DNA of 64,000 nt from an uncultured bacterium (GCA_903919715.1 CAIXJC010000010.1:1-64000), one strand, 5' to 3'. Positions 49,359 through 60,555 are shown, counted from the stretch's first letter. Numbers and translations are program-made. Notes: a model not told the origin generated them from the sequence alone.

Positions 49359-49458
49359 TTGAACTGATCGCAGGATAACAAGAACAGAGAATTGCGCTAC
49401 CTTCCCGACTCGATATTCGCCCTTTGATATTGGCCGTTTGAGATTTGAGAAAACACCG

Positions 49459-50529
49459 ATGCCTCTGTTGAGAAACTTCCTCTTCATCTTGTCCATCGCG
49501 ATCGCAGTAACTGCGCTGCAATCTGCCGCTGGGGCCGAAGTCGTTTCGCCAGCGGTGGTGTGCGCTCCGTCGAGCGGCAATATCAATGGTGGCGATCTGA
49601 GCATTTTCAGCCCGGCAAGCCCTCCAGCGCATGAAATCCGAGAGATTGCGTGGCTTGTCCTTGGAATTTGTGCAGTCATTTTCGTGGTCGTTGAAGGCGT
49701 CTTGATCTGGTCGATCATTCGATTCCGCAAGAAGGCGCGCGATGCTGGCGAACCCCTTCAAGTTTTCGGCAGCAACCCCGTCGAACTCGCATGGACGGTG
49801 ATCCCGACGATCATCGTGTTCGTTCTTGCGCTTGCAACGCTGCGAACAATCCGCGAAGTGGAATTGACGGAGCCACCAGCAGGTTCACTCAACGTCGATG
49901 TGATTGGGCATCAATGGTGGTGGGAATATCGACTTCCAAATCTGCAAGGCGACGGAACGATTGTCACCGCAAATGAACTCGTCGTGCCGGTTGGACGACC
50001 AATCTGGCTGACACTTCATTCGGCGGATGTCATCCATTCTTTCTGGATTCCGCAACTGAATGGCAAGACCGACATCATCCCAAACAATGTTGGGCACACA
50101 TGGTTTCAAGCTGATCGCCAAGGAATCTTCCTTGGTCAGTGCGCTGAATATTGTGGGATGCAACATGCGAATATGTTGCTGCGCGTGACCGCAGTTGATG
50201 ACGCTGCATTCGCTGCTTGGTGCACGATCCAATCGAGCGCCGCCGTTTCAAATACAACTGTTGAGCAGGGGCGCAATATGTTTCTTGATCTGGCTTGTAT
50301 GAATTGTCATGCGATCGACGGAACTTCCAACGGATCGTTCGGACCCAATCTGACGCATCTCATGAGCCGAACGACGATCGGGGCGGGAGTTGCACCACTC
50401 AACGCGGAAACGCTGCGGGCGTGGGTCGACAATCCACAGAACCTCAAGGATGGCTGCAATATGCCAAGTCTCGAACTCGAACCAAGTCAACTTGATGCGA
50501 TCGTCGCATACCTCTTGACCCTGAAATAA
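49459..50529 (+). CDS. ctaC: Cytochrome c oxidase subunit II with C-terminal cytochrome c (caa3 type)
   Basis: The 356-residue subunit has a signal peptide (about 1-24), two transmembrane helices (about 60-85 and 105-130), then the cupredoxin domain: VIGHQWWWEYRLP, SADVIHSFWIPQLN and the CuA site CAEYCGMQHANM. The C-terminus adds a cytochrome c domain (ACMNCHAIDGTSNGSFGPNL, a Met ligand in NMPSLELEP). It accepts electrons for the caa3-type oxidase. ATG 49459 gives the signal peptide; the first gene of a nine-gene operon. Confidence 0.95.
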   Translation: MPLLRNFLFILSIAIAVTALQSAAGAEVVSPAVVCAPSSGNINGGDLSIFSPASPPAHEIREIAWLVLGICAVIFVVVEGVLIWSIIRFRKKARDAGEPLQVFGSNPVELAWTVIPTIIVFVLALATLRTIREVELTEPPAGSLNVDVIGHQWWWEYRLPNLQGDGTIVTANELVVPVGRPIWLTLHSADVIHSFWIPQLNGKTDIIPNNVGHTWFQADRQGIFLGQCAEYCGMQHANMLLRVTAVDDAAFAAWCTIQSSAAVSNTTVEQGRNMFLDLACMNCHAIDGTSNGSFGPNLTHLMSRTTIGAGVAPLNAETLRAWVDNPQNLKDGCNMPSLELEPSQLDAIVAYLLTLK

Positions 50530-50534
50530 ATCAC

Positions 50535-52217
50535 ATGACGACTGCATCACATCCTCACTCCATTCCTGATGAAGTGCGACTTACATTCGGCGCTCGTCTT
50601 CATTCTTGGGCTGTCTCCGTTGATCACAAGCGACTCGGAATGATGTATGTCGGTTTCGGTCTGTTCTTCTTCGTGATTGGAGGAATCGAAGCAGCGCTGA
50701 TGCGAATGCAACTTGCGCAAGCGGCGGGCAAGATCATTGATCCCGCAACATTCAATCAACTTTTCACGATGCACGGCACCACGATGGTCTTTCTTGTGGG
50801 AATGCCGATTCTGCTTGGAATTGGAAATTATCTGATCCCGTTGATGGTTGGTGCGAGAGACATGGCGTTTCCTCGTCTCAACGCATTTGGGCTCTGGCTC
50901 TTCGTCTTTGGAGCATGCCTTCTGTACTACTCATATGTTGGCGCACAAGGGCTGTACGGAACATCGGCTGCGCCAGATGTCGGATGGTTTGCATATGCGC
51001 CCCTGACATCGAAAACATTTTCTCCAGGGAACTCAACGGACTATTGGATCTTGGGAATCTTGGTCAGCGGTTTAGGAAGCATCACAACTGCAATCAATAT
51101 CGTTGCAACGATCTTGGTCATGCGCTGCCCTGGAATGACGCTCATGCGGATGCCGCTTCTCTGCTGGATGATGTTGGTGACGGGCATCCTTGTGATCATT
51201 GCGATACCAGTGCTCACTGGCGCCCAAGCGATGCTGATCTTGGACCGATTTCTCGGCGCACACTTTTTCGACACCCAAAACGGCGGTTCGGCAGTGCTTT
51301 GGCAACATCTCTTCTGGTTCTTCGGGCATCCTGAGGTCTACATTCTCGTCCTACCAGCCTTTGGTTTTCTCAATGAAATCATCCCAGTTTTCAGCCGAAA
51401 AGTGATCTTTGGATATGCGCTGATGGTTGCTGCGACCGTGGCAATCGGCTTCATTTCTCTCAGCGTTTGGGCGCATCACATGTTCTCAATCGGGATGTCA
51501 CCCGAAGTCAATTCATTCTTCGCTGCAACGACATTTCTGATTGCGGTTCCAACGGGGATCAAGATTTTTACATGGCTTGGAACAATGGTCGGTGGAAGAA
51601 TTCACTTCGCGACCCCAATGCTCTTTGCTGCGGGATTCATTGCGATGTTCACCTTCGGCGGACTGACTGGCGTGATGCTCGCCGTCGTCCCATTCGACTG
51701 GCAATTGTCGGACAGCTATTTCGTCGTGGCGCATTTTCACTATGTGCTTTTCGGCGGAACAGTCTTTGGGATTTTCGGCGGTGTCTTCTATTGGTTTCCA
51801 AAGGCCACAGGGCGAATGCTTTCGGAACGGCTTGGAAAATGGTTCTTCTGGTTCTTGTTCTTCGGATTCAATCTGACTTTCTTACCGATGCACATTTCTG
51901 GGATTCTGGGAATGCCACGACGCATCTACATGTATCAACCAGATCGAGGGTTGGAGTTGTGGAACATGCTTTCATCAATCGGAGTTTTCTTTCAAGCGAT
52001 TGCGATCATCCTCTTTGTCTGGAACATCATCCGTTCTCTTCGCAGTGGCAAGGTGGCGGGGAATAATCCATGGAATGCATGGACACTGGAGTGGGCAACC
52101 TCGAGTCCACCACCCGAATGGAACTTCGATCAAGTTCCCACCGTTGGTTCCGCACGTCCACTCTGGGATGTCGCTAATCCGCAGGATCCAGATTCTCGGC
52201 ATGAGGAGCACCTATGA
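50535..52217 (+). CDS. ctaD: Cytochrome c oxidase subunit I
   Basis: The 560-residue protein has 12 expected transmembrane helices. TMHGTTMVFLVGMPILLGIGNYLIPLMVGARDMAFPRLN carries one of the haem a His ligands, LFWFFGHPEVYILVLPAFGF has the CuB His and cross-linked Tyr, SVWAHHMFSIGM the two further CuB ligands, and AHFHYVLFGGTVFGIFGG the haem ligands. It is the catalytic subunit reducing O2 to water. The start follows ctaC by five bases; ctaE overlaps its stop. Confidence 0.97.
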   Translation: MTTASHPHSIPDEVRLTFGARLHSWAVSVDHKRLGMMYVGFGLFFFVIGGIEAALMRMQLAQAAGKIIDPATFNQLFTMHGTTMVFLVGMPILLGIGNYLIPLMVGARDMAFPRLNAFGLWLFVFGACLLYYSYVGAQGLYGTSAAPDVGWFAYAPLTSKTFSPGNSTDYWILGILVSGLGSITTAINIVATILVMRCPGMTLMRMPLLCWMMLVTGILVIIAIPVLTGAQAMLILDRFLGAHFFDTQNGGSAVLWQHLFWFFGHPEVYILVLPAFGFLNEIIPVFSRKVIFGYALMVAATVAIGFISLSVWAHHMFSIGMSPEVNSFFAATTFLIAVPTGIKIFTWLGTMVGGRIHFATPMLFAAGFIAMFTFGGLTGVMLAVVPFDWQLSDSYFVVAHFHYVLFGGTVFGIFGGVFYWFPKATGRMLSERLGKWFFWFLFFGFNLTFLPMHISGILGMPRRIYMYQPDRGLELWNMLSSIGVFFQAIAIILFVWNIIRSLRSGKVAGNNPWNAWTLEWATSSPPPEWNFDQVPTVGSARPLWDVANPQDPDSRHEEHL

Positions 52218-52810
52218 GCGTTGCTGTATCAAAGACATCTCAACCTGTGCAGTGGCAACCTTCGCGTGGCAAGGTTGGAATGATCTGTTTGATTGCAGCA
52301 GAAAGTTGCATCTTCCTGACTTTCGTTGTGGCGTATCTGTTCTACATCGGTAAGAGCGCAACGGGCCCTCAGCCTAAAGACGTGATCGAGATGCCGCTTG
52401 TGATCGTGAATTCGATTGCACTCATTTCGAGCTCATTCACCGTGGTCTTCGCCGTGAAAGCACTCGAACGACAGAAAAAAGGTCTCTTTCTCGTCTGGCT
52501 GGCCTTGACGATTGTGCTGGGGCTTTGGTTCGTCGGTGGAACAGCGTCCGAGTGGAAAGGGATGATGGAACAGCATGGTCTTTACATCGGGACCAATCTC
52601 TTTGGCACAACTTATTATGCACTCGTCGGTCTGCATCTCCTTCATGTGGTTGTGGGGCTGACGATGCTGAGCATTGTGTTGATACTGGGAACGCTTGGGT
52701 GCGTTCGCTGCCGCCACGCGCACGCGTTTGACATGTTGAGTTGGTATTGGCATTTCGTCGATGCGGTATGGATCGTCGTTTTCACAACGGTCTACGTGAT
52801 TGGACGTTGA
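52214..52810 (+). CDS. ctaE: Cytochrome c oxidase subunit III
   Basis: The 198-residue protein has five hydrophobic segments, with WQPSRGKVGMICLIAAESCIFLTFVVAYLFY, a conserved HGLYIGTNLFGTTYYALVGLHLLHVVVGLTML and WYWHFVDAVWIVVFTTVYVIGR at the C-terminus, all typical of short (five-helix) subunit III. It starts at ATG 52214, overlapping ctaD. Confidence 0.95.
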   Translation: MSVAVSKTSQPVQWQPSRGKVGMICLIAAESCIFLTFVVAYLFYIGKSATGPQPKDVIEMPLVIVNSIALISSSFTVVFAVKALERQKKGLFLVWLALTIVLGLWFVGGTASEWKGMMEQHGLYIGTNLFGTTYYALVGLHLLHVVVGLTMLSIVLILGTLGCVRCRHAHAFDMLSWYWHFVDAVWIVVFTTVYVIGR

Positions 52811-52830
52811 TTGAGAAACAAGGCGCACAC

Positions 52831-53673
52831 ATGAAGCAGAACGAAGACAAACATCTCGCAACCGCCGCACAAGACGGACGAATTGAAACTCCATATAACC
52901 GCGCGATTCCAGAGCCGACTTCGGGTCCGATCGTGACGGCTTTGGGCGTGGCACTTCTTGCGGCAGGACTCGTCACGGATTACTGGGTCTTGGCTGTCGG
53001 TGCGATACTGGCCGTCTTTGGAATGGTCGTCTGGTTTAAAGACATCTTTCCGCAAGAGTGTCTCGAACCGATCCCTGCTGATCTCTTGGCCAAAGCAGGA
53101 CCGGATTACGCAGTCGAGGGCGAAGGCCCTAAAGTCGAAAGACCACTATTCCCTGCAGAAGTTCATCCATATCGCTCAGGGGTTGTGGGAGGGCTCGTGG
53201 GCGGTGTTGCGATGGCGATCGTGGCGTGCATGTGGGGAATCGTCAAACATGGCAGCGTCTGGTTACCGATCAACCTTCTCACTGGCGCTGTCATTCCAGA
53301 AGTGGGAACGGCAGATCTTGCAACACTCGAAGTGTTGCATCCTGGATGGTTTGCAATCGCAATTGGAATTCATCTTGCGATGTCTGTTGCCGTTGGATCG
53401 CTGTACACCACAGCACTGCCGATGATGCCGCGTCGCCCCATTTTCGCAGGTGGAGTGCTCGTGCCAATCATTGTCACAGGTTTAGTCTGGGCGACACTTG
53501 GCGTCGTCAATCCAGCACTCGAAAAATACATTTCGTGGCCGTGGTTCATTGGAAGTCAATTGGCATTTGGAGTCGCCTGCGGTTGGTGGGTCAGCCGAGG
53601 AGAGATGGTCTCGACGATGACCAACAAAACACTTGCACAGCGATTGCGAATTGAACGAGGAGGCGACGAATGA
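52831..53673 (+). CDS. Multispan membrane protein of the oxidase operon, function unknown
   Basis: The 280-residue protein has about five to six hydrophobic segments. An N-terminal piece (GVALLAAGLVTDYWVLAVGAILAVFGMVVWFKDIFPQE) resembles the subunit IV accessory of caa3 oxidases. The rest (VVGGLVGGVAMAIVACMWGIVKHGSVWLPINLL, GGVLVPIIVTGLVWATLGVVNP) resembles unnamed planctomycete proteins at this position. Its place between ctaE and the cytochrome c gene makes a structural or assembly role in the oxidase likely. ATG 52831 is used. Confidence 0.72.
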   Translation: MKQNEDKHLATAAQDGRIETPYNRAIPEPTSGPIVTALGVALLAAGLVTDYWVLAVGAILAVFGMVVWFKDIFPQECLEPIPADLLAKAGPDYAVEGEGPKVERPLFPAEVHPYRSGVVGGLVGGVAMAIVACMWGIVKHGSVWLPINLLTGAVIPEVGTADLATLEVLHPGWFAIAIGIHLAMSVAVGSLYTTALPMMPRRPIFAGGVLVPIIVTGLVWATLGVVNPALEKYISWPWFIGSQLAFGVACGWWVSRGEMVSTMTNKTLAQRLRIERGGDE

Positions 53674-54449
53674 TGTCCCCACAAACATACCGCTTGCTTG
53701 CGTGCGTTCTTGTTTTTTCAGCCATCGTGTTTGCCTTTGTTGGCTGTGACCGCTTGCACGGGAAACCAACCGAAGCTGCTCCAACTGTGATTGGATCGCC
53801 ATCGTGGACACAGTCGACCTTCAATACAAGTTGCCTCGGTTGCCATTCGAAAGGTGCCGAGGGTGCAGCAATACCGCTTATGAACGCTGGTTATTGGAAA
53901 GTTGCAACTGATGCGCACGTGATCCAAGTTCTCTCGCACGGGCAGGGAGTCTCGATGCCGAACTATTTGGATTCCGATGGCGGCCCGCTGACCTCCGATG
54001 AAATCGCAGCGTTGGTCAAAGGAATGAGATCGATGTGGGGAGCTGGATCACTTGGAGGGCAGGGAGCGCAGGGAGGGCATGCGGGACAGGGCGATATCTC
54101 AGCAACTGTGGTTGCTGGCGACGCTGCGTCTGGTGCGAAAGTATTTGCGACCGCATGCGCTTCATGTCACGGAACTGGCGGTTCTGCAGGAAGCGTGACT
54201 GATCCGATGTATCTGCGGCTCATCTCTGACCAAGGATTGTGGAGCGCCGTCGTCTACGGCCGAACCGAACTCGGAAGCCCCGCGTGGAATCAACCCATGC
54301 CGAATCATCCAACAGGATTGACGACGACTGAGGTTGCTGATGTCGTCAGTTGGATTGCGCAGGCGAGACCAGTTTCCAAAGCGCAAGGTCAAGCAAAGGT
54401 TCAAACGAAAAGCCAACCGAAAAACCAGAATGCGAGCGATACGAAATGA
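53670..54449 (+). CDS. Diheme cytochrome c lipoprotein
   Basis: The 259-residue product has a lipoprotein signal (YRLLACVLVFSAIVFAFVGC, lipobox FVGC) and two haem-c sites: FNTSCLGCHSKGAEGAAIPLM (first) and TACASCHGTGGSAGS (second). Met ligands could be in MNAGYW/MPNYL and QPMPNH. It is an electron carrier between the bc-type complex and the oxidase. ATG 53670 overlaps the previous gene; the Rieske gene overlaps it by four bases. Confidence 0.92.
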   Translation: MMSPQTYRLLACVLVFSAIVFAFVGCDRLHGKPTEAAPTVIGSPSWTQSTFNTSCLGCHSKGAEGAAIPLMNAGYWKVATDAHVIQVLSHGQGVSMPNYLDSDGGPLTSDEIAALVKGMRSMWGAGSLGGQGAQGGHAGQGDISATVVAGDAASGAKVFATACASCHGTGGSAGSVTDPMYLRLISDQGLWSAVVYGRTELGSPAWNQPMPNHPTGLTTTEVADVVSWIAQARPVSKAQGQAKVQTKSQPKNQNASDTK

Positions 54450-55027
54450 GTGACAACACAAAAGGCGAAACGAAGAAAGAAGGCTGCGTTGGATGCGGTT
54501 GTGGTGGTGGCGGAGGCGGACGTCCAGCTGCTGTGCCACAAGATGCGCGTCGCGGATTCATGTTCAAAATTGGCGCCGGATTGCTTGGGATAGGCGGAGC
54601 GCTCGCAGCTGTACCAATCGTCGGATACATCGTTGGACCAGCGCGAAGTCGCTATCGCAACCAATGGGTCGATCTGGGAGCAACCACGGCATTTCCTTCG
54701 GGCCAAACTCGTTTCGCGACATTCCTGAATCCGATTCGACAACCCACCGATGGAGATGCCGCAAAAACCGCATGTTGGGTGCGCTGCGTCGAAGCTGGAA
54801 AGTTCCAAGTCTTTGCAATCAATTGTGCTCACCTCGGATGCCCAGTTCGTTGGTTCGAGCAATCGAAATTGTTCATGTGCCCATGCCACGGCGGGGTGTA
54901 TTACCAAGATGGATCTCGTGCGGCAGGACCGCCACCGCGCGGTCTCTTTGAATACAAGTGGAAAGTCGAATCGGGAAAACTCCTCATTGATGCCGGCCGA
55001 TTGCCGGGATTGGAAGAGTCGGTATGA
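54446..55027 (+). CDS. petA: Rieske iron-sulfur protein
   Basis: The 193-residue protein has an odd N-terminus rich in Gly and Cys (CVGCGCGGGGGG, about residues 13-27), one transmembrane helix (about 38-62), and the [2Fe-2S] site in two boxes: CAHLGC and CPCHGG, each with Cys-X-His. It passes electrons in the bc-type complex. The N-terminal Cys-rich stretch is not part of the Rieske fold and may bind a metal. ATG 54446 overlaps the stop of the diheme cytochrome gene. Confidence 0.95.
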   Translation: MSDNTKGETKKEGCVGCGCGGGGGGRPAAVPQDARRGFMFKIGAGLLGIGGALAAVPIVGYIVGPARSRYRNQWVDLGATTAFPSGQTRFATFLNPIRQPTDGDAAKTACWVRCVEAGKFQVFAINCAHLGCPVRWFEQSKLFMCPCHGGVYYQDGSRAAGPPPRGLFEYKWKVESGKLLIDAGRLPGLEESV

Positions 55028-56562
55028 ACCGCGAAGTCATTCTCAAACTTCTCAAGAGTCCCGCGCAGTGGATTGAAGAACGCACGGGTGTTGTGGCGTT
55101 CAGTGCGCCACTGCTCTTTCACCATGTGCCTCGAAGTGCAAAGTGGTGGTACGTCTTTGGAAGCGCGACTCTGATGTTCTTCACAATTCAGATTGTGACT
55201 GGAATCTGCCTTGGAACGATGTATGCCCCGAGCGCATCAAATGCTTGGGAAAGCCTTCGTTTCATCGACGAAGAGATTCCATTTGGATGGATGCTGCGAG
55301 CGCTCCACGGTTGGTCGAGCAGTGCGATGGTGGTCATGATGGCGATCCACATGCTGCAAGTCTTCATGCACGGTTCGTTCAAATTCCCGCGCGAGTTGAA
55401 TTGGATCACGGGCGTGTTCTTGCTACTGACGGTGCTTGCACTGGCGTTCACGGGACAAGTCATGCGCTGGGATCAAGATGCATACTGGGGACTTGGAATC
55501 GGTGCAGCGATCGTTGACCGCGTTCCTGTCTTCGGCGATCAGATGCGTGCGCTCATGCTGGGCGGACCAATCATCGGCGGCGAAACGCTCAACCGATTCT
55601 TTGCGCTCCATGTTTTCATTCTGCCAGGTGCCGCCATCGCGTTGGTCGGACTTCACATGACGCTGATCATCAAGAACGGCATCAGCGAAATGCCGAAGCC
55701 TGGCGAGATCGTGGTGCCTTCGACATATCGAGAAGGTTTCGAAGAGCGCATGAAAAAAACTGGGGTGCCGTTCTTCCCAGACGCAGTGCAGCGCGACATG
55801 GTTTTCTGCGGAGTCTGCCTCCTTCTGCTCGTCTTCTTGGCTGCGTATTACGGCCCGTTCGGTCCAGGCGGAATGCCAGATCCAACGCTCATCAATACCA
55901 ATCCACGGCCGGACTATCCCTTCATGTGGATCTTTGGAGCAGTCAGCCTTCTTCCGCCTGCATCTGAAACAGCCATCATGTTGGTTGCACCAGTTGTTGG
56001 GATTGTCATCTTGGTGGCAGTTCCATTCCTTGCAAACTCTGGCGAACGCGCTCCGAGTCGTCGTCCTGGAATGATGCTGCTTGCAGTTGTTGTTGTGATG
56101 GCAATCGTCGCACTGACATGGGAGGGAGTAACAAGCCCATGGTCGCCAGTCATGGACGGTTGGTCGGCACTGCCAACACCGACTCAATTTGTAAAAGGTC
56201 GCACGCCACTTCAAATGCAAGGAGCAGTCGTCTTTCAGTTTGCACAATGTCGCAACTGCCATGAACTTGGTGGCTTTGGCGGCAAGCGTGGTCCTGCACT
56301 CGATGAGGTTGCAACTCGCATGTCACCTGATCAACTCATCCGTCAAGTCCAACAGGGCGGTGGCAATATGCCCGCATTCGGAAAGAATCTCAACAGTGCG
56401 CAGATGACCGCCATCGTCGATTTCCTCAGCACGCTTCACCCTGAAAACGAAGCGGATTCGGCGATTCCTGGGGCGCAGTTGCCACTGCCGATCAAGTCGC
56501 CACTGACGATGAATACGGTTTCGAGCGGAGCAGAGACGCCAGCAGGAATTCATTCGCGCTGA
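55024..56562 (+). CDS. petB: Cytochrome b (b6-type plus subunit IV-like part) fused to a C-terminal cytochrome c
   Basis: The 512-residue protein has the haem-b pairs LHGWSSSAMVVMMAIHM (13 residues between His) and LHVFILPGAAIALVGLHM (14 residues between, the b6-type spacing). Residues about 270-390 form the subunit IV-like part (LINTNPRPDYPFMWIFGAVSLLPPASE). After that comes a c-type haem domain, QCRNCHELGGFGGKRGPALDEVA and the Met ligand in NMPAFGKNL. The quinol-oxidising complex and its cytochrome c exit are thus in one polypeptide. Start overlaps the Rieske stop by four bases. Confidence 0.93.
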   Translation: MNREVILKLLKSPAQWIEERTGVVAFSAPLLFHHVPRSAKWWYVFGSATLMFFTIQIVTGICLGTMYAPSASNAWESLRFIDEEIPFGWMLRALHGWSSSAMVVMMAIHMLQVFMHGSFKFPRELNWITGVFLLLTVLALAFTGQVMRWDQDAYWGLGIGAAIVDRVPVFGDQMRALMLGGPIIGGETLNRFFALHVFILPGAAIALVGLHMTLIIKNGISEMPKPGEIVVPSTYREGFEERMKKTGVPFFPDAVQRDMVFCGVCLLLLVFLAAYYGPFGPGGMPDPTLINTNPRPDYPFMWIFGAVSLLPPASETAIMLVAPVVGIVILVAVPFLANSGERAPSRRPGMMLLAVVVVMAIVALTWEGVTSPWSPVMDGWSALPTPTQFVKGRTPLQMQGAVVFQFAQCRNCHELGGFGGKRGPALDEVATRMSPDQLIRQVQQGGGNMPAFGKNLNSAQMTAIVDFLSTLHPENEADSAIPGAQLPLPIKSPLTMNTVSSGAETPAGIHSR

Positions 56563-56612
56563 GCGCAGCCGCCGCCATTTTCAACAGTTGGAATATCGAC
56601 CCATGGCTGGTC

Positions 56613-58856
56613 GTGGGAATCGCATGCGCCTGCGCGTTGTATGCACGAGGCGTGCGAGGAATCGTCGGGCGTGTTCGCGGATTCCCTCGTTGGAGACCCA
56701 AGTGCTTTGCTGCGGGAATGGCGATTCTCTTTCTCGCTCTTGCATCGCCGATCGACTCGCTCGGTCACATGCTGTTATGGGTGCACATGGTTCAACACTG
56801 GTTGTTAATCATGATTGCTGCACCGCTGATTCTCTTAGGAGCGCCAGGCATTCCAATGCTGCGGGGACTACCAAACGTGGTTCGTCGGCAAGCACTCGGC
56901 CCATTTCTTGCCAGCCCTTTCCTGCGCAAATGTCTTGGCGTCATACTGCATCCAGTCAGCGGATGGATTGCATTCGCACTCGTCAACTGGGTCTGGCACT
57001 ATCCAACTTTTTATGGCGCTGCGCTCGAGTCAACATTCGTTCACCGATTTGAACACGCTTCGTTTCTTGCGGGCGCCATGCTGTTTTGGTGGCAGATTAT
57101 TGCGCCGTGGCCGTGGCACGCACGGTGGCCCGATGCAGCGCTCGTTGTCTATCTGCTTGCCGCCGATGTGCAAAACACGATCTTCTCTGCAATCGTGACC
57201 TTTTCCGACTCAGTGCTCTATTCAAACTATCTCGCAACCGCACCCGCACTCGGCTGGACTGCGCTTCGCGATCAGCGAACCGCTGGGGCATTCATGTGGA
57301 CCGCTGGTCAAGTCGTCATGCTGCCAGCTGCAATTTTTCTGATCTTGCGGGCACTGAAAATTGTTCGCCCCAATCGATTCGCGGCGCCTCAGCGTGACGC
57401 TCTTGCCGTGCATCACCAAAAGCGCTTTGACCTGCTTCAAGTCGCATGGATCGGCGGGTTCCTGCGCAATCGTGCAGCGAGAGAGTCGCTGAGATGGACG
57501 CTGGTGGCGGTTGCACTCGTCATTGTGGTGGATGGATTTGCAGGTCCATCTGACTCACCATCAAACCTCGCTGGGACATTGCCGTGGACTCATTGGCGCG
57601 GCGTCATCGTGATTGCACTTCTCTTTGGAGGCAATTTTCTTTGCATGTCCTGTCCATTGATGGCACCCCGAAATCTCATGCGCCGATGGTGGACTCCGCA
57701 CTTTCGTTGGCCAAGCGCCTTGCGTTCCAAGTGGTTGGCAGTTGGGCTTGTTGCGATCTGGCTGATTTCATACGAGGCCTTTGATCTTTGGTCGAGTCCA
57801 ATAGCGACCGCATTCATCATTGTCGGATACTTCACCGCAGTTCTTGTGATCGATGGCCTCTTTCGAGGTGGCAGTTTTTGCAAATGGGTCTGTCCCATTG
57901 GGCAATTTCATATGACACAAAGTCTCGTCTCACCACTTTCGGTTTCCGTCAGCAATACAGCGGTATGCGCAACATGCACGGGACGAGAGTGCATTCGCGG
58001 CTCGAATTCTGGCCACATCAAATCATCGAGTGTCGCACTGCGGATCTCGGTGCCTGGTTGCGAGTTGGAACTCTTTCAGCCCGCCAAGCGCGGCAACTTG
58101 GACTGCACATTCTGTTTGGACTGCGTCGATGCGTGCCCGCACGACAACGTTGGAATTTTAACGCAGTCACCTCGCATAGGCCTGACTGATCGGCGATGGG
58201 GATCATCGATCGGACGGATCGCCTCTCGGATCGATATCGCCGCATTGCTCGTGCTCTTGGCATTCGGCGCCTTCGCTAATGCAGCAGGGATGACCGTGCC
58301 GTGGCTTGATTTTGTCGATGGCGTAACGCAGTCACTTGGTCTCACGTCGACTGTTCCCGTCGAAGCGGGAATGACGACGGTGGCGATCGTGATCGTGCCA
58401 TTGATTCTGATGTCAGCCTCTGCACTTATCTCGTCACAAATCGCAAAGCGGCCATGGCGCGAAGAGTTCTGCCGAGGTGCACACGCGCTTGTTCCCATCG
58501 GTGCATCTATGTGGTGTGTGCACTGGTTCTTTCATCTCGCAACGAGCGCTTCGACAGCAATTCCAGTCATGCAGCGAGCCCTCAATGACCTTGGATTCGC
58601 ATGGTTCGGCGAACCACAGTGGGCGGCTTCATGTTGCGGTTCCGTTCCAACGTGGTTGATACCGATTGAACTTCTCTTGCTGCAGTTGGGGTTGGTCGTC
58701 TCGGGTTGGATGGTCTGGCGCGGAAATGCGCAGCGAATAGGGGGGCGATCAATCGTGACAGCGCTTCCGTGGTGGATTCTGGCACTGACCTTATGGCTCG
58801 TTGGCGTTTGGATCGTCTTTCAACCAATGCAAATGCGTGGGACATCAACGCTATGA
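56613..58856 (+). CDS. Fusion of a CtaG (Caa3-assembly) domain with a CcoG/NapH-like polyferredoxin
   Basis: The 747-residue product joins two systems. Residues 1-260 resemble caa3_CtaG (copper delivery to the oxidase): LWVHMVQHWLLIMIAAPLILLGAPGIPML and FEHASFLAGAMLFWWQIIAPWPW. Residues about 300-600 have about six transmembrane helices and FCKWVCPIGQFH, then CTFCLDCVDACPHDNVG, a [4Fe-4S] ferredoxin site of the NapH/CcoG kind. GTG 56613 is the first usual start, but SWNIDPWLVVGIA upstream is in frame and typical of CtaG N-termini. CTG 56559, which overlaps the cytochrome b stop, may be the true start. Confidence 0.85.
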   Translation: MGIACACALYARGVRGIVGRVRGFPRWRPKCFAAGMAILFLALASPIDSLGHMLLWVHMVQHWLLIMIAAPLILLGAPGIPMLRGLPNVVRRQALGPFLASPFLRKCLGVILHPVSGWIAFALVNWVWHYPTFYGAALESTFVHRFEHASFLAGAMLFWWQIIAPWPWHARWPDAALVVYLLAADVQNTIFSAIVTFSDSVLYSNYLATAPALGWTALRDQRTAGAFMWTAGQVVMLPAAIFLILRALKIVRPNRFAAPQRDALAVHHQKRFDLLQVAWIGGFLRNRAARESLRWTLVAVALVIVVDGFAGPSDSPSNLAGTLPWTHWRGVIVIALLFGGNFLCMSCPLMAPRNLMRRWWTPHFRWPSALRSKWLAVGLVAIWLISYEAFDLWSSPIATAFIIVGYFTAVLVIDGLFRGGSFCKWVCPIGQFHMTQSLVSPLSVSVSNTAVCATCTGRECIRGSNSGHIKSSSVALRISVPGCELELFQPAKRGNLDCTFCLDCVDACPHDNVGILTQSPRIGLTDRRWGSSIGRIASRIDIAALLVLLAFGAFANAAGMTVPWLDFVDGVTQSLGLTSTVPVEAGMTTVAIVIVPLILMSASALISSQIAKRPWREEFCRGAHALVPIGASMWCVHWFFHLATSASTAIPVMQRALNDLGFAWFGEPQWAASCCGSVPTWLIPIELLLLQLGLVVSGWMVWRGNAQRIGGRSIVTALPWWILALTLWLVGVWIVFQPMQMRGTSTL

Positions 58857-59425
58857 AACTCGATGCAATGATGAAATGGATCGCCCGTGTGCTTGCAGTC
58901 GCATGTTGCATCCGAGCGCATGCAGATGGAGGAGCTGTCGTCGATCGCGGCCACTACGGAGCGTTTGACGTGACCGTTTTTCTCTCACCAGTTCCGCCGT
59001 GCGCAGGCGCAATCGATTTTTCAATCCTCGTCTCTCGAAATGGAGAACCCCAGTTGAGTACCCCCGTGCATGTGCGTGCGGATGGTCCCGGCGGTGCGTG
59101 GAACGAAGTCGAGATGCACAGTGCAGATTCCGGCAATCGACTCTTGCGTGCATGTTCGTTGACACTTGGATCACCTGGCGTATGGCGAATTTCCATTCTG
59201 ATTGGTGATGGCGTCTCTGATCGTGGTTCGTTCGATATCTCTGTGAATCCCGCACCGCCACCGTGGCGCGCATCGCTTCCTTGGATGGTGTTATGGATTC
59301 CAGCTGCACTGATTCTGGTGGCACGAGAAAAACTGATAACGAATCAACGTCGTCGCCGCGGTGCTTGGAGGGAATCGGACCAAGCTGGATCAAATCCGGA
59401 ACGATTTTCAGCGAGTATTCTGTGA
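58853..59425 (+). CDS. Secreted Ig-like protein with C-terminal membrane anchor (FixH/YtkA-like position)
   Basis: The 190-residue product has a signal peptide (about 1-24), a beta-rich domain (about 30-130, with YGAFDVTVFLSPVPPCAGAIDFSILVSRNGEP), a Pro-rich stretch and one transmembrane helix (SLPWMVLWIPAALILVA). In other oxidase operons FixH or YtkA-like proteins hold this spot, and the Ig-like fold agrees, but no strict motif is visible. ATG 58853 overlaps the stop of the fusion gene by four bases. Confidence 0.6.
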   Translation: MKLDAMMKWIARVLAVACCIRAHADGGAVVDRGHYGAFDVTVFLSPVPPCAGAIDFSILVSRNGEPQLSTPVHVRADGPGGAWNEVEMHSADSGNRLLRACSLTLGSPGVWRISILIGDGVSDRGSFDISVNPAPPPWRASLPWMVLWIPAALILVAREKLITNQRRRRGAWRESDQAGSNPERFSASIL

Positions 59426-59430
59426 TCACC

Positions 59431-60555
59431 ATGACCGCGACTGAAGGAGCCATACCGAAGGATTTGTCAGCTGACGAACTGTCGAAGCTCTACCGCATTG
59501 ACGACTTCGAGATGATTGCGCGTGAGCGACTTTCACAAATGACATTTGCGTACTACGCAGGGGGAGCAGGGGACGAACGCACACTGTCGCGCAATCGAGC
59601 CGCATGGGAGGCACTCTCGATCTGGTACCGAGTGATGATCGATGTCTCCAAGCGATCGCCCGCAACAACGATGTTGAATATGCCACTGTCCTTTCCACTA
59701 CTCGCAGCGCCAACTGCACTTCACAAGATGGCGCACCGCGACGGAGAAGTTGCGACAGCGCGCGCATGCGGTACCGCAGGCATTCCGATGGTGGTCAGCA
59801 GTCTTTCGACAACATCCATCGAGGAGATTTGTGCGGCTTCGAGCTCGCCAATTCTCTTTCAGTTATACATCGGTCAAGACCGCGGATTCTTGGGCGAGTT
59901 GGTTCATCGAGTCGAACGTGCTGGATGCGTCGCATTGCAATTGACTGTGGATACTCCAGTCTGGGGACTGCGTGAGCGAGAAATGAAAACTGGGTTTCAC
60001 GTTCCCCAAGGCATGGGCATTGTGAATCTCCAACGATCAGGCGCCGATGCAAATGGTCACACAGGCGTTGGCATGGCACAAACATTGGGATGGACGATCA
60101 CGCCAAGTTTGTGTTGGAAAGATCTTGAATGGCTCTGCGGATTGACGAGACTTCCTGTGATGGTCAAAGGAATCTGCCGAGCTGATGATGCGCTCACCGC
60201 CGTGCGCTGTGGAGCGAAGGGAATCGTTGTCAGCAACCATGGGGGACGACAACTCGACGGTGCGCCGCCGACTGCTGAGGCATTACCGCGCATTGCACAG
60301 GCTGTGGCGAGTCGCGTTCCAGTGGTCGTCGATGGTGGCATTCGGCACGGCGGCGACATTCTCAAGGCATTGGCGCTCGGCGCAACAGCTGTTCAGATCG
60401 GGCGACCAATTCTGTGGGGGCTTGCGACGGCAGGTGAGCATGGCGCGCGCCGAGTGATCGACATTCTTTCAAGCGATTTCGATCGAGTGATGGCATTGGC
60501 CGGATGCCCAACCATCGCCAGCATCACGCACGATTTGCTTGAACCTTCACGCTAA
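59431..60555 (+). CDS. FMN-dependent 2-hydroxyacid oxidase/dehydrogenase (lactate or glycolate oxidase family)
   Basis: The 374-residue TIM-barrel enzyme has FAYYAGGAGDERTL, ILFQLYIGQDRG, LQLTVDTPVWGLRERE, IVVSNHGGRQLDGAPPTAEALPRI with the catalytic His and substrate Arg, and VVVDGGIRHGGDILKALALGATAVQIGRP. This is the L-lactate/glycolate/mandelate family; YAGGAGDE is close to lactate oxidase and lactate 2-monooxygenase. It follows the respiratory operon by five bases. GTG 59422 overlapping the previous stop is another possible start. Confidence 0.9.
   Translation: MTATEGAIPKDLSADELSKLYRIDDFEMIARERLSQMTFAYYAGGAGDERTLSRNRAAWEALSIWYRVMIDVSKRSPATTMLNMPLSFPLLAAPTALHKMAHRDGEVATARACGTAGIPMVVSSLSTTSIEEICAASSSPILFQLYIGQDRGFLGELVHRVERAGCVALQLTVDTPVWGLREREMKTGFHVPQGMGIVNLQRSGADANGHTGVGMAQTLGWTITPSLCWKDLEWLCGLTRLPVMVKGICRADDALTAVRCGAKGIVVSNHGGRQLDGAPPTAEALPRIAQAVASRVPVVVDGGIRHGGDILKALALGATAVQIGRPILWGLATAGEHGARRVIDILSSDFDRVMALAGCPTIASITHDLLEPSR

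Follow-up and report, generated by a model that had tools for sequence, protein, structure and literature searches.

The window analysed is a stretch of 64,000 nucleotides from an uncultured bacterium, and the genes and motifs considered here all lie on its plus strand (Table 1). They belong to an operon that encodes, in this order, caa3 oxidase subunits II, I and III, a small membrane protein, a di-haem-c cytochrome, a Rieske protein, a cytochrome b/c protein, a fused gene and a small periplasmic protein. The caa3 setting described in an earlier note on this DNA was confirmed by Pfam, which places the three oxidase subunits at 49438-52810. The region 49438-56562 unites, in an operon conserved across three phyla, the caa3 oxidase and a Rieske/cytochrome b complex that carries additional cytochrome c domains; the two look like a dedicated supercomplex. 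Of the 54 fused loci with room for them, 48 have the oxidase and bc genes upstream in conserved order. In most members of the genus the operon is directly followed by a gene that, named by eye, resembles an FMN-dependent hydroxy-acid dehydrogenase (59263-60555).

Table 1. Genes, domains and motifs of the caa3 operon and its fused gene (positions counted from the first letter of the window).
Feature	Position	Strand	Basis or remark
caa3 subunit II with C-terminal cytochrome c	49438..50529	+	PF00116, PF00034
caa3 subunit I	50535..52217	+	PF00115, E 1e-158
caa3 subunit III	52214..52810	+	PF00510
Cytochrome c (two haem-c domains), Rieske protein, cytochrome b with C-terminal cytochrome c; three genes	53670..56562	+	Pfam
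Fused gene, 765 aa	56559..58856	+	Single open frame; CTG start overlaps upstream stop
Caa3_CtaG domain, seven predicted TM helices	56634..57356	+	PF09678, E 7.8e-56; model pLDDT mostly >90
H76-M77-x-Q79-H80, candidate copper ligands of CtaG	56784..56798	+	Invariant, 65-protein alignment; predicted periplasmic side
Further invariant candidate ligands of CtaG	H147 56997; H162 57042; H166 57054; D238 57270	+	Same 65-protein alignment
NapH-superfamily membrane ferredoxin half: nine predicted TM helices and cytoplasmic 2x[4Fe-4S] domain	57420..58853	+	TIGR02163; hhalign
C362-x2-C365-P (CX2CP) membrane motif, cytoplasmic end of TM9	57642..57656	+	Invariant in all architectures
C441-x3-C445-P motif	57879..57896	+	Both cysteines invariant
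Two [4Fe-4S] motifs: C470, C473, C478, C501; C516, C519, C522, C526	57966..58136	+	Invariant, 82/82 fused
H655-x3-H659 in TM14, C-terminal extension	58521..58535	+	Invariant in fused, sister and YHS groups
QPMQMRG, end of last helix, predicted periplasmic	58821..58841	+	81/82 fused; remaining one gapped there
YtkA-like periplasmic beta-sandwich protein, signal peptide, C-terminal TM	58853..59425	+	3' partner in 53/61 fused loci with room

The fused gene is read in one frame of 765 codons with zero internal stops, which is bounded 5' by an in-frame stop and measures 803 codons from stop to stop. The CTG at 56559, given as the start in the earlier note, forms a CTGA overlap with the TGA that ends the cytochrome b gene before it, and it is retained in the ten other genus members that align there. 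The earliest ATG, GTG or TTG in frame is the GTG at 56613, an alternative start that is disfavoured because residue W11, 92% conserved among fused proteins, sits 5' of it and would be lost. Since W11 is conserved and the CTG is retained across the aligning genus members, a start at 56559 is plausible and this CTG is the probable start codon. At loci L126 and L168 of genome G385 the open frame of the fusion reaches far 5' of CtaG (1021 codons) and overlaps the cytochrome b gene; this long upstream part is probably just an open frame and non-coding. A frameshift or an assembly chimera is ruled out by uninterrupted fusions in many independent assemblies, among them those on the chromosome of Lacipirellula limnantheis and on that of Planctomycetes bacterium Pan216. 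The claim that CtaG and a NapH/CcoG-type membrane ferredoxin form a single polypeptide therefore holds.

The N-terminal half was compared with CtaG profiles, as the earlier note had suggested. Residues 26-266 match Caa3_CtaG (PF09678) with 189.5 bits against a cut-off of 27.7, covering positions 1-235 of the 237 in the profile, and the NCBIfam equivalog TIGR02737 is not reached (61 versus 279 bits). On these profile scores the half classifies as a member of the Caa3_CtaG domain family and not as the Bacillus-type equivalog; the Pfam scan of the fusion gave no match to Cox11_CtaG (PF04442). Caa3_CtaG is needed for active caa3 oxidase in B. subtilis, is distinct from Cox11 and has a tentative role at CuB (PMC9145763, PMC13344008). 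Of the earlier statement that CtaG places CuB, the identification of Caa3_CtaG thus stands, whereas the CuB role is itself tentative for this family (PMC9145763), which is not that of Cox11_CtaG. Like B. subtilis CtaG, the half comprises the whole domain with seven helices and conserved periplasmic His/Asp candidates and is encoded in a caa3 operon; only the fusion carries an attached iron-sulfur protein of nine helices. H76, H80, H147, H162, H166 and D238 are unchanged across 65 aligned fused proteins, and the candidate ligands are predicted to face the periplasm.

The signature of the C-terminal half consists of CX2CP, CX3CP, eight ferredoxin cysteines, HxxxH and QPMxMRG. All 12 cysteines and both HxxxH histidines are invariant in each of the 82 fused proteins with an intact ferredoxin, and QPMxMRG is found in 81 of them, the last one being gapped at the site. 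Both iron-sulfur motifs quoted in the earlier note are present and their cysteines belong to this invariant set. In the Pfam scan residues 288-765 gave weak Fer4 matches, and the fusion gave no thioredoxin-like domain. The best curated model for this half in NCBIfam was NapH (TIGR02163, E 6e-7), at 29 bits against a cut-off of 213, and PRK09477 (NapH) gave 17 bits, also below its threshold (234). A sequence search of the PDB returned ferredoxin-motif matches alone, with E 0.01 or worse. By hhalign the half aligned over about 160 residues to CcoG (Prob 94%) and to a polyferredoxin of a NapA-like cluster (93.7%).

This half had been taken for CcoG, which was called a cuprous-oxidase-type reductase. 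The term is imprecise, as CcoG is described as a cupric reductase supporting cbb3 oxidase assembly (PMC7558416), and the assignment fails. The fusion gives no match to the CcoG equivalog TIGR02745, FixG_C (the C-terminal Ig-like domain of FixG) is absent from its Pfam scan, its C-terminus is helical in the structural model, and the genome holds a separate, true ccoG. Shared with CcoG/RdxA/FixG (TIGR02745) are the two [4Fe-4S] motifs, the paired membrane cysteine motifs and the oxidase-assembly setting; CcoG, however, has CX3CP as first motif, as a comparison with the CcoG of this genome showed, along with FixG_C and a cbb3 oxidase, while the fusion has CX2CP, no FixG_C, a unique C-terminal extension and a caa3 oxidase. 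With the module of NapH, NosR and RdhC it has in common the core with two cysteine motifs, electron transfer, TIGR02163 as best curated match and relatives in NapA-like clusters; it differs in scoring far below the NapH cut-off, in its CtaG partner and in its five-helix extension with HxxxH and QPMxMRG, and no FMN domain was detected. The features that define the superfamily, a membrane core, two CX3CP-type motifs and a ferredoxin, are found with CX2CP as the first motif. Judged by its sequence, the C-terminal half is a distinct branch of the NapH/NosR/CcoG superfamily, marked by CX2CP and by the five-helix extension.

An AlphaFold model of the 765-aa fusion has a mean pLDDT of 89 and a pTM of 0.68. 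It contains sixteen helices whose loops alternate between basic and non-basic, as the positive-inside rule predicts. Topology was derived from these model helices together with the charge rule: both termini are predicted to be outside, as are the CtaG ligands and QPMxMRG, and the ferredoxin is predicted to be inside together with both cysteine motifs of the membrane part. A Foldseek search of the whole model against the PDB gave nothing at E <0.001, so that the whole has no solved relative there. With clusters inside and CtaG ligands outside, as predicted, any reduction of Cu(II) followed by hand-over must cross the membrane, and a simple hand-over on one side would be impossible.

The YtkA-like partner downstream is predicted to fold as a beta-sandwich; its N-terminus resembles a signal peptide and its C-terminus is a helix. 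Its closest structural match is the copper protein CrdA of H. pylori (E 2.4e-4). Eleven of 34 members match PF13115, with E up to 0.05. The resemblance to CrdA counts for a copper function, whereas the lack of any conserved His or Met in the partner counts against it.

The fusion is common to Planctomycetota, Verrucomicrobiota and Acidobacteriota. In the search for relatives, the fusion turned up at full length in most members of the genus and also in several further genera of its family. When a collection of species genomes was scanned with the C-terminal half, 276 relatives were obtained, and the best 80 of these 276, in named genomes, comprise 74 fused proteins and 6 cut at a contig end; as these 80 are the nearest, 74 of 80 overstates generality and an even sample of the phylum is fairer. 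In such a sample of 343 planctomycete genomes, 19 had a CtaG over the cut-off, of which 4 were fused and 15 unfused, as judged by co-location of CtaG and C-half matches, and CtaG function in general therefore does not depend on the ferredoxin. The fusion is the sole CtaG in 12 of 15 carrier genomes; CcoG is absent from 27 of 30 fusion-bearing genomes and Cox11 from all 30. In a tree of 76 C-half sequences all CtaG-fused ones fall in one clade (98/94), with mostly standalone genes as sister group. The tree topology indicates a single origin of the fusion, which was retained across the three phyla. CcoG joins this tree on a branch of length 9.9, which makes its placement unusable.

Elsewhere the C-half family pairs with copper or metal domains (a YtkA neighbour, YHS, HMBD, cupredoxin), which counts for copper. 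Two standalone sister genes were viewed in context and both adjoin a PF13115 YtkA gene, and at L175:1501-3420 and L180:1495-3468 the membrane ferredoxin is fused to HMBD and to a cupredoxin/COX2-like domain. The YHS-fused relatives form a separate single group in the tree, and several of them have a NapA-like molybdoenzyme and NapG-like ferredoxins encoded in the same cluster. YHS fusion as pure copper evidence is weakened by this placement. Moreover, HxxxH and QPMxMRG are invariant in these relatives, where the acceptor is not necessarily copper, which speaks against the copper reading. The loci L036 and L156-L162 hold C-half relatives of this kind, many of them YHS-fused, with the molybdoenzyme and ferredoxins and in some cases a small beta-rich-looking protein; the clusters are apparently an atypical nitrate-reductase-type system of planctomycetes. 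One CtaG fusion of the same family (L027:934-2916, minus strand, genome G023) has its two-cluster ferredoxin segment deleted in frame and retains CX2CP, CX3CP, HxxxH and QPMxMRG. Either the copper path is separate from the clusters, or the deletion reflects decay or an assembly error; if real, it is a possible natural test, free of clusters, of what the clusters do.

The genome content of the source organism was checked family by family. It encodes three haem-copper oxidases in all, two besides the caa3 of the operon, and includes a fused CcoN-CcoO cbb3 followed by the true CcoG (406 bits with TIGR02745). Of the two separate genes for which the earlier note proposed to look, ccoG is thus present beside the cbb3 oxidase and ctaG is not, the fusion being the only Caa3_CtaG. 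Cox11 (PF04442) was not found in this genome. A second A-type oxidase (L187, G000:C20:24000-36000) lies in a cluster that, named by eye, resembles alternative complex III and contains a Sco gene.

An intact CtaG with invariant ligands, the invariant motifs of the C-terminal half, the fixed position in the caa3/bc operon and the status of sole CtaG all count for reading the fusion as an assembly factor. NosR and NapH transfer electrons with the core that the C-terminal half shares, and NosR is considered to activate a copper enzyme (PMC5928378). As CcoG is a cupric reductase and NapH and NosR transfer electrons through that core, the fusion most likely supplies electrons for Cu(I) at the CtaG site. 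Copper reduction by CcoG is placed in the cytoplasm (PMC13038864), and a local cupric reductase has been argued to be necessary for B. subtilis, which is without CcoG (PMC13344008).

Our preferred reading, which we hold with evenly divided confidence, is that the fusion assists in assembling the caa3 oxidase of its own operon and has two modules, a CuB (or CuA) inserter or chaperone of the Caa3_CtaG type and, joined to it, an electron carrier that keeps copper as Cu(I). The N-terminal module would face the periplasm and serve in insertion or as a chaperone. Electrons from a cytoplasmic or quinol donor would enter the two cytoplasmic [4Fe-4S] clusters and pass through the paired CX2CP/CX3CP cysteines to the transmembrane HxxxH site; their delivery would maintain the copper inserted by CtaG as Cu(I), with the periplasmic QPMxMRG end and the YtkA-like partner on the delivery side. 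Both this electron path and copper as its acceptor are what we infer. The idea that one protein reduces copper and hands it over, which the earlier note put forward, is favoured by the copper context of the relatives and by the absence of CcoG from most carriers, while the CcoG of the source genome and the fusion without ferredoxin in L027 count against the proposed role. In its fullest form, to which we give rather less than even credence, this would be a transmembrane "reduce and insert" machine: a new cupric reductase branch joined to a caa3 CuB inserter in three phyla, replacing CcoG and Cox11 where both are absent.

A different acceptor is conceivable, though we consider it unlikely. As in NosR, the C-terminal half, oxidising quinol or fed from the cytoplasm, could reduce the nascent oxidase (the CuA thiols of subunit II, disulfides, haem a3 or the assembled CuB) and not free or chaperone-bound copper. 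NapH is the closest curated model and, like NosR, supplies a partner enzyme with electrons, with NosR thought to activate the copper enzyme NosZ (PMC5928378); the module recurs in NapA-like clusters, and the caa3 operon also encodes a quinol-oxidising bc-type complex. Nevertheless, the module also recurs with copper or metal-binding domains, it is fused to CtaG and not to subunit II, and no thioredoxin-like domain is present.

Distinctly less probable is a copper translocation unit, in which the C-terminal half would bring cytoplasmic Cu(I) to CtaG in the manner of CopD, with the clusters mainly guarding redox state. The precedent is CtiP of Corynebacterium glutamicum, a fusion of CtaG and CopD (PMC9145763) proposed to be a copper importer (PMC9145763, PMC13344008). 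CtiP likewise joins CtaG to a copper-related membrane module and serves the bc1-aa3 supercomplex, but its partner includes CopD and is N-terminal to CtaG, whereas here an iron-sulfur protein is C-terminal to it. The cysteine motifs at the cytoplasmic end, the membrane HxxxH and the periplasmic-end MxM could form a path, and L027 retains all path motifs without the ferredoxin; yet there is neither transporter homology nor a solved fold match, and relatives in NapA-like clusters have identical residues. That the clusters sense redox state or oxygen and thereby gate CtaG is very improbable, for although two [4Fe-4S] clusters occur in an aerobic assembly factor and one relative (L027) lost them but kept CtaG, an entire electron-carrier module, including the cysteine motifs of the membrane part and the five-helix extension, is retained in three phyla and exceeds the needs of a sensor.

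The two families were already known; new are the joining of the halves, the distinct subfamily of the C-terminal half and its spread. What the analysis establishes is the fusion and how it is conserved, the operon, which residues are invariant, and the domain architectures among the relatives. No description of a CtaG-iron-sulfur fusion was found in the literature searched, whose coverage excluded most subscription papers, and the reviews on oxidase assembly factors that treat Caa3_CtaG fusions name CopD and no iron-sulfur partner. Neither the route by which Cu(I) reaches CuB in A-type oxidases nor the function of Caa3_CtaG has so far been settled (PMC9145763, PMC13344008), and the natural joining of CtaG to an electron carrier hints strongly at a need of CtaG for electrons; the fusion also offers testable residues. 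The finding suggests that carrier bacteria may combine the loading of copper and the supply of electrons in a single machine. If the preferred reading is true, caa3 would add a third theme of respiratory assembly, beside CcoG for cbb3 and NosR for NosZ.
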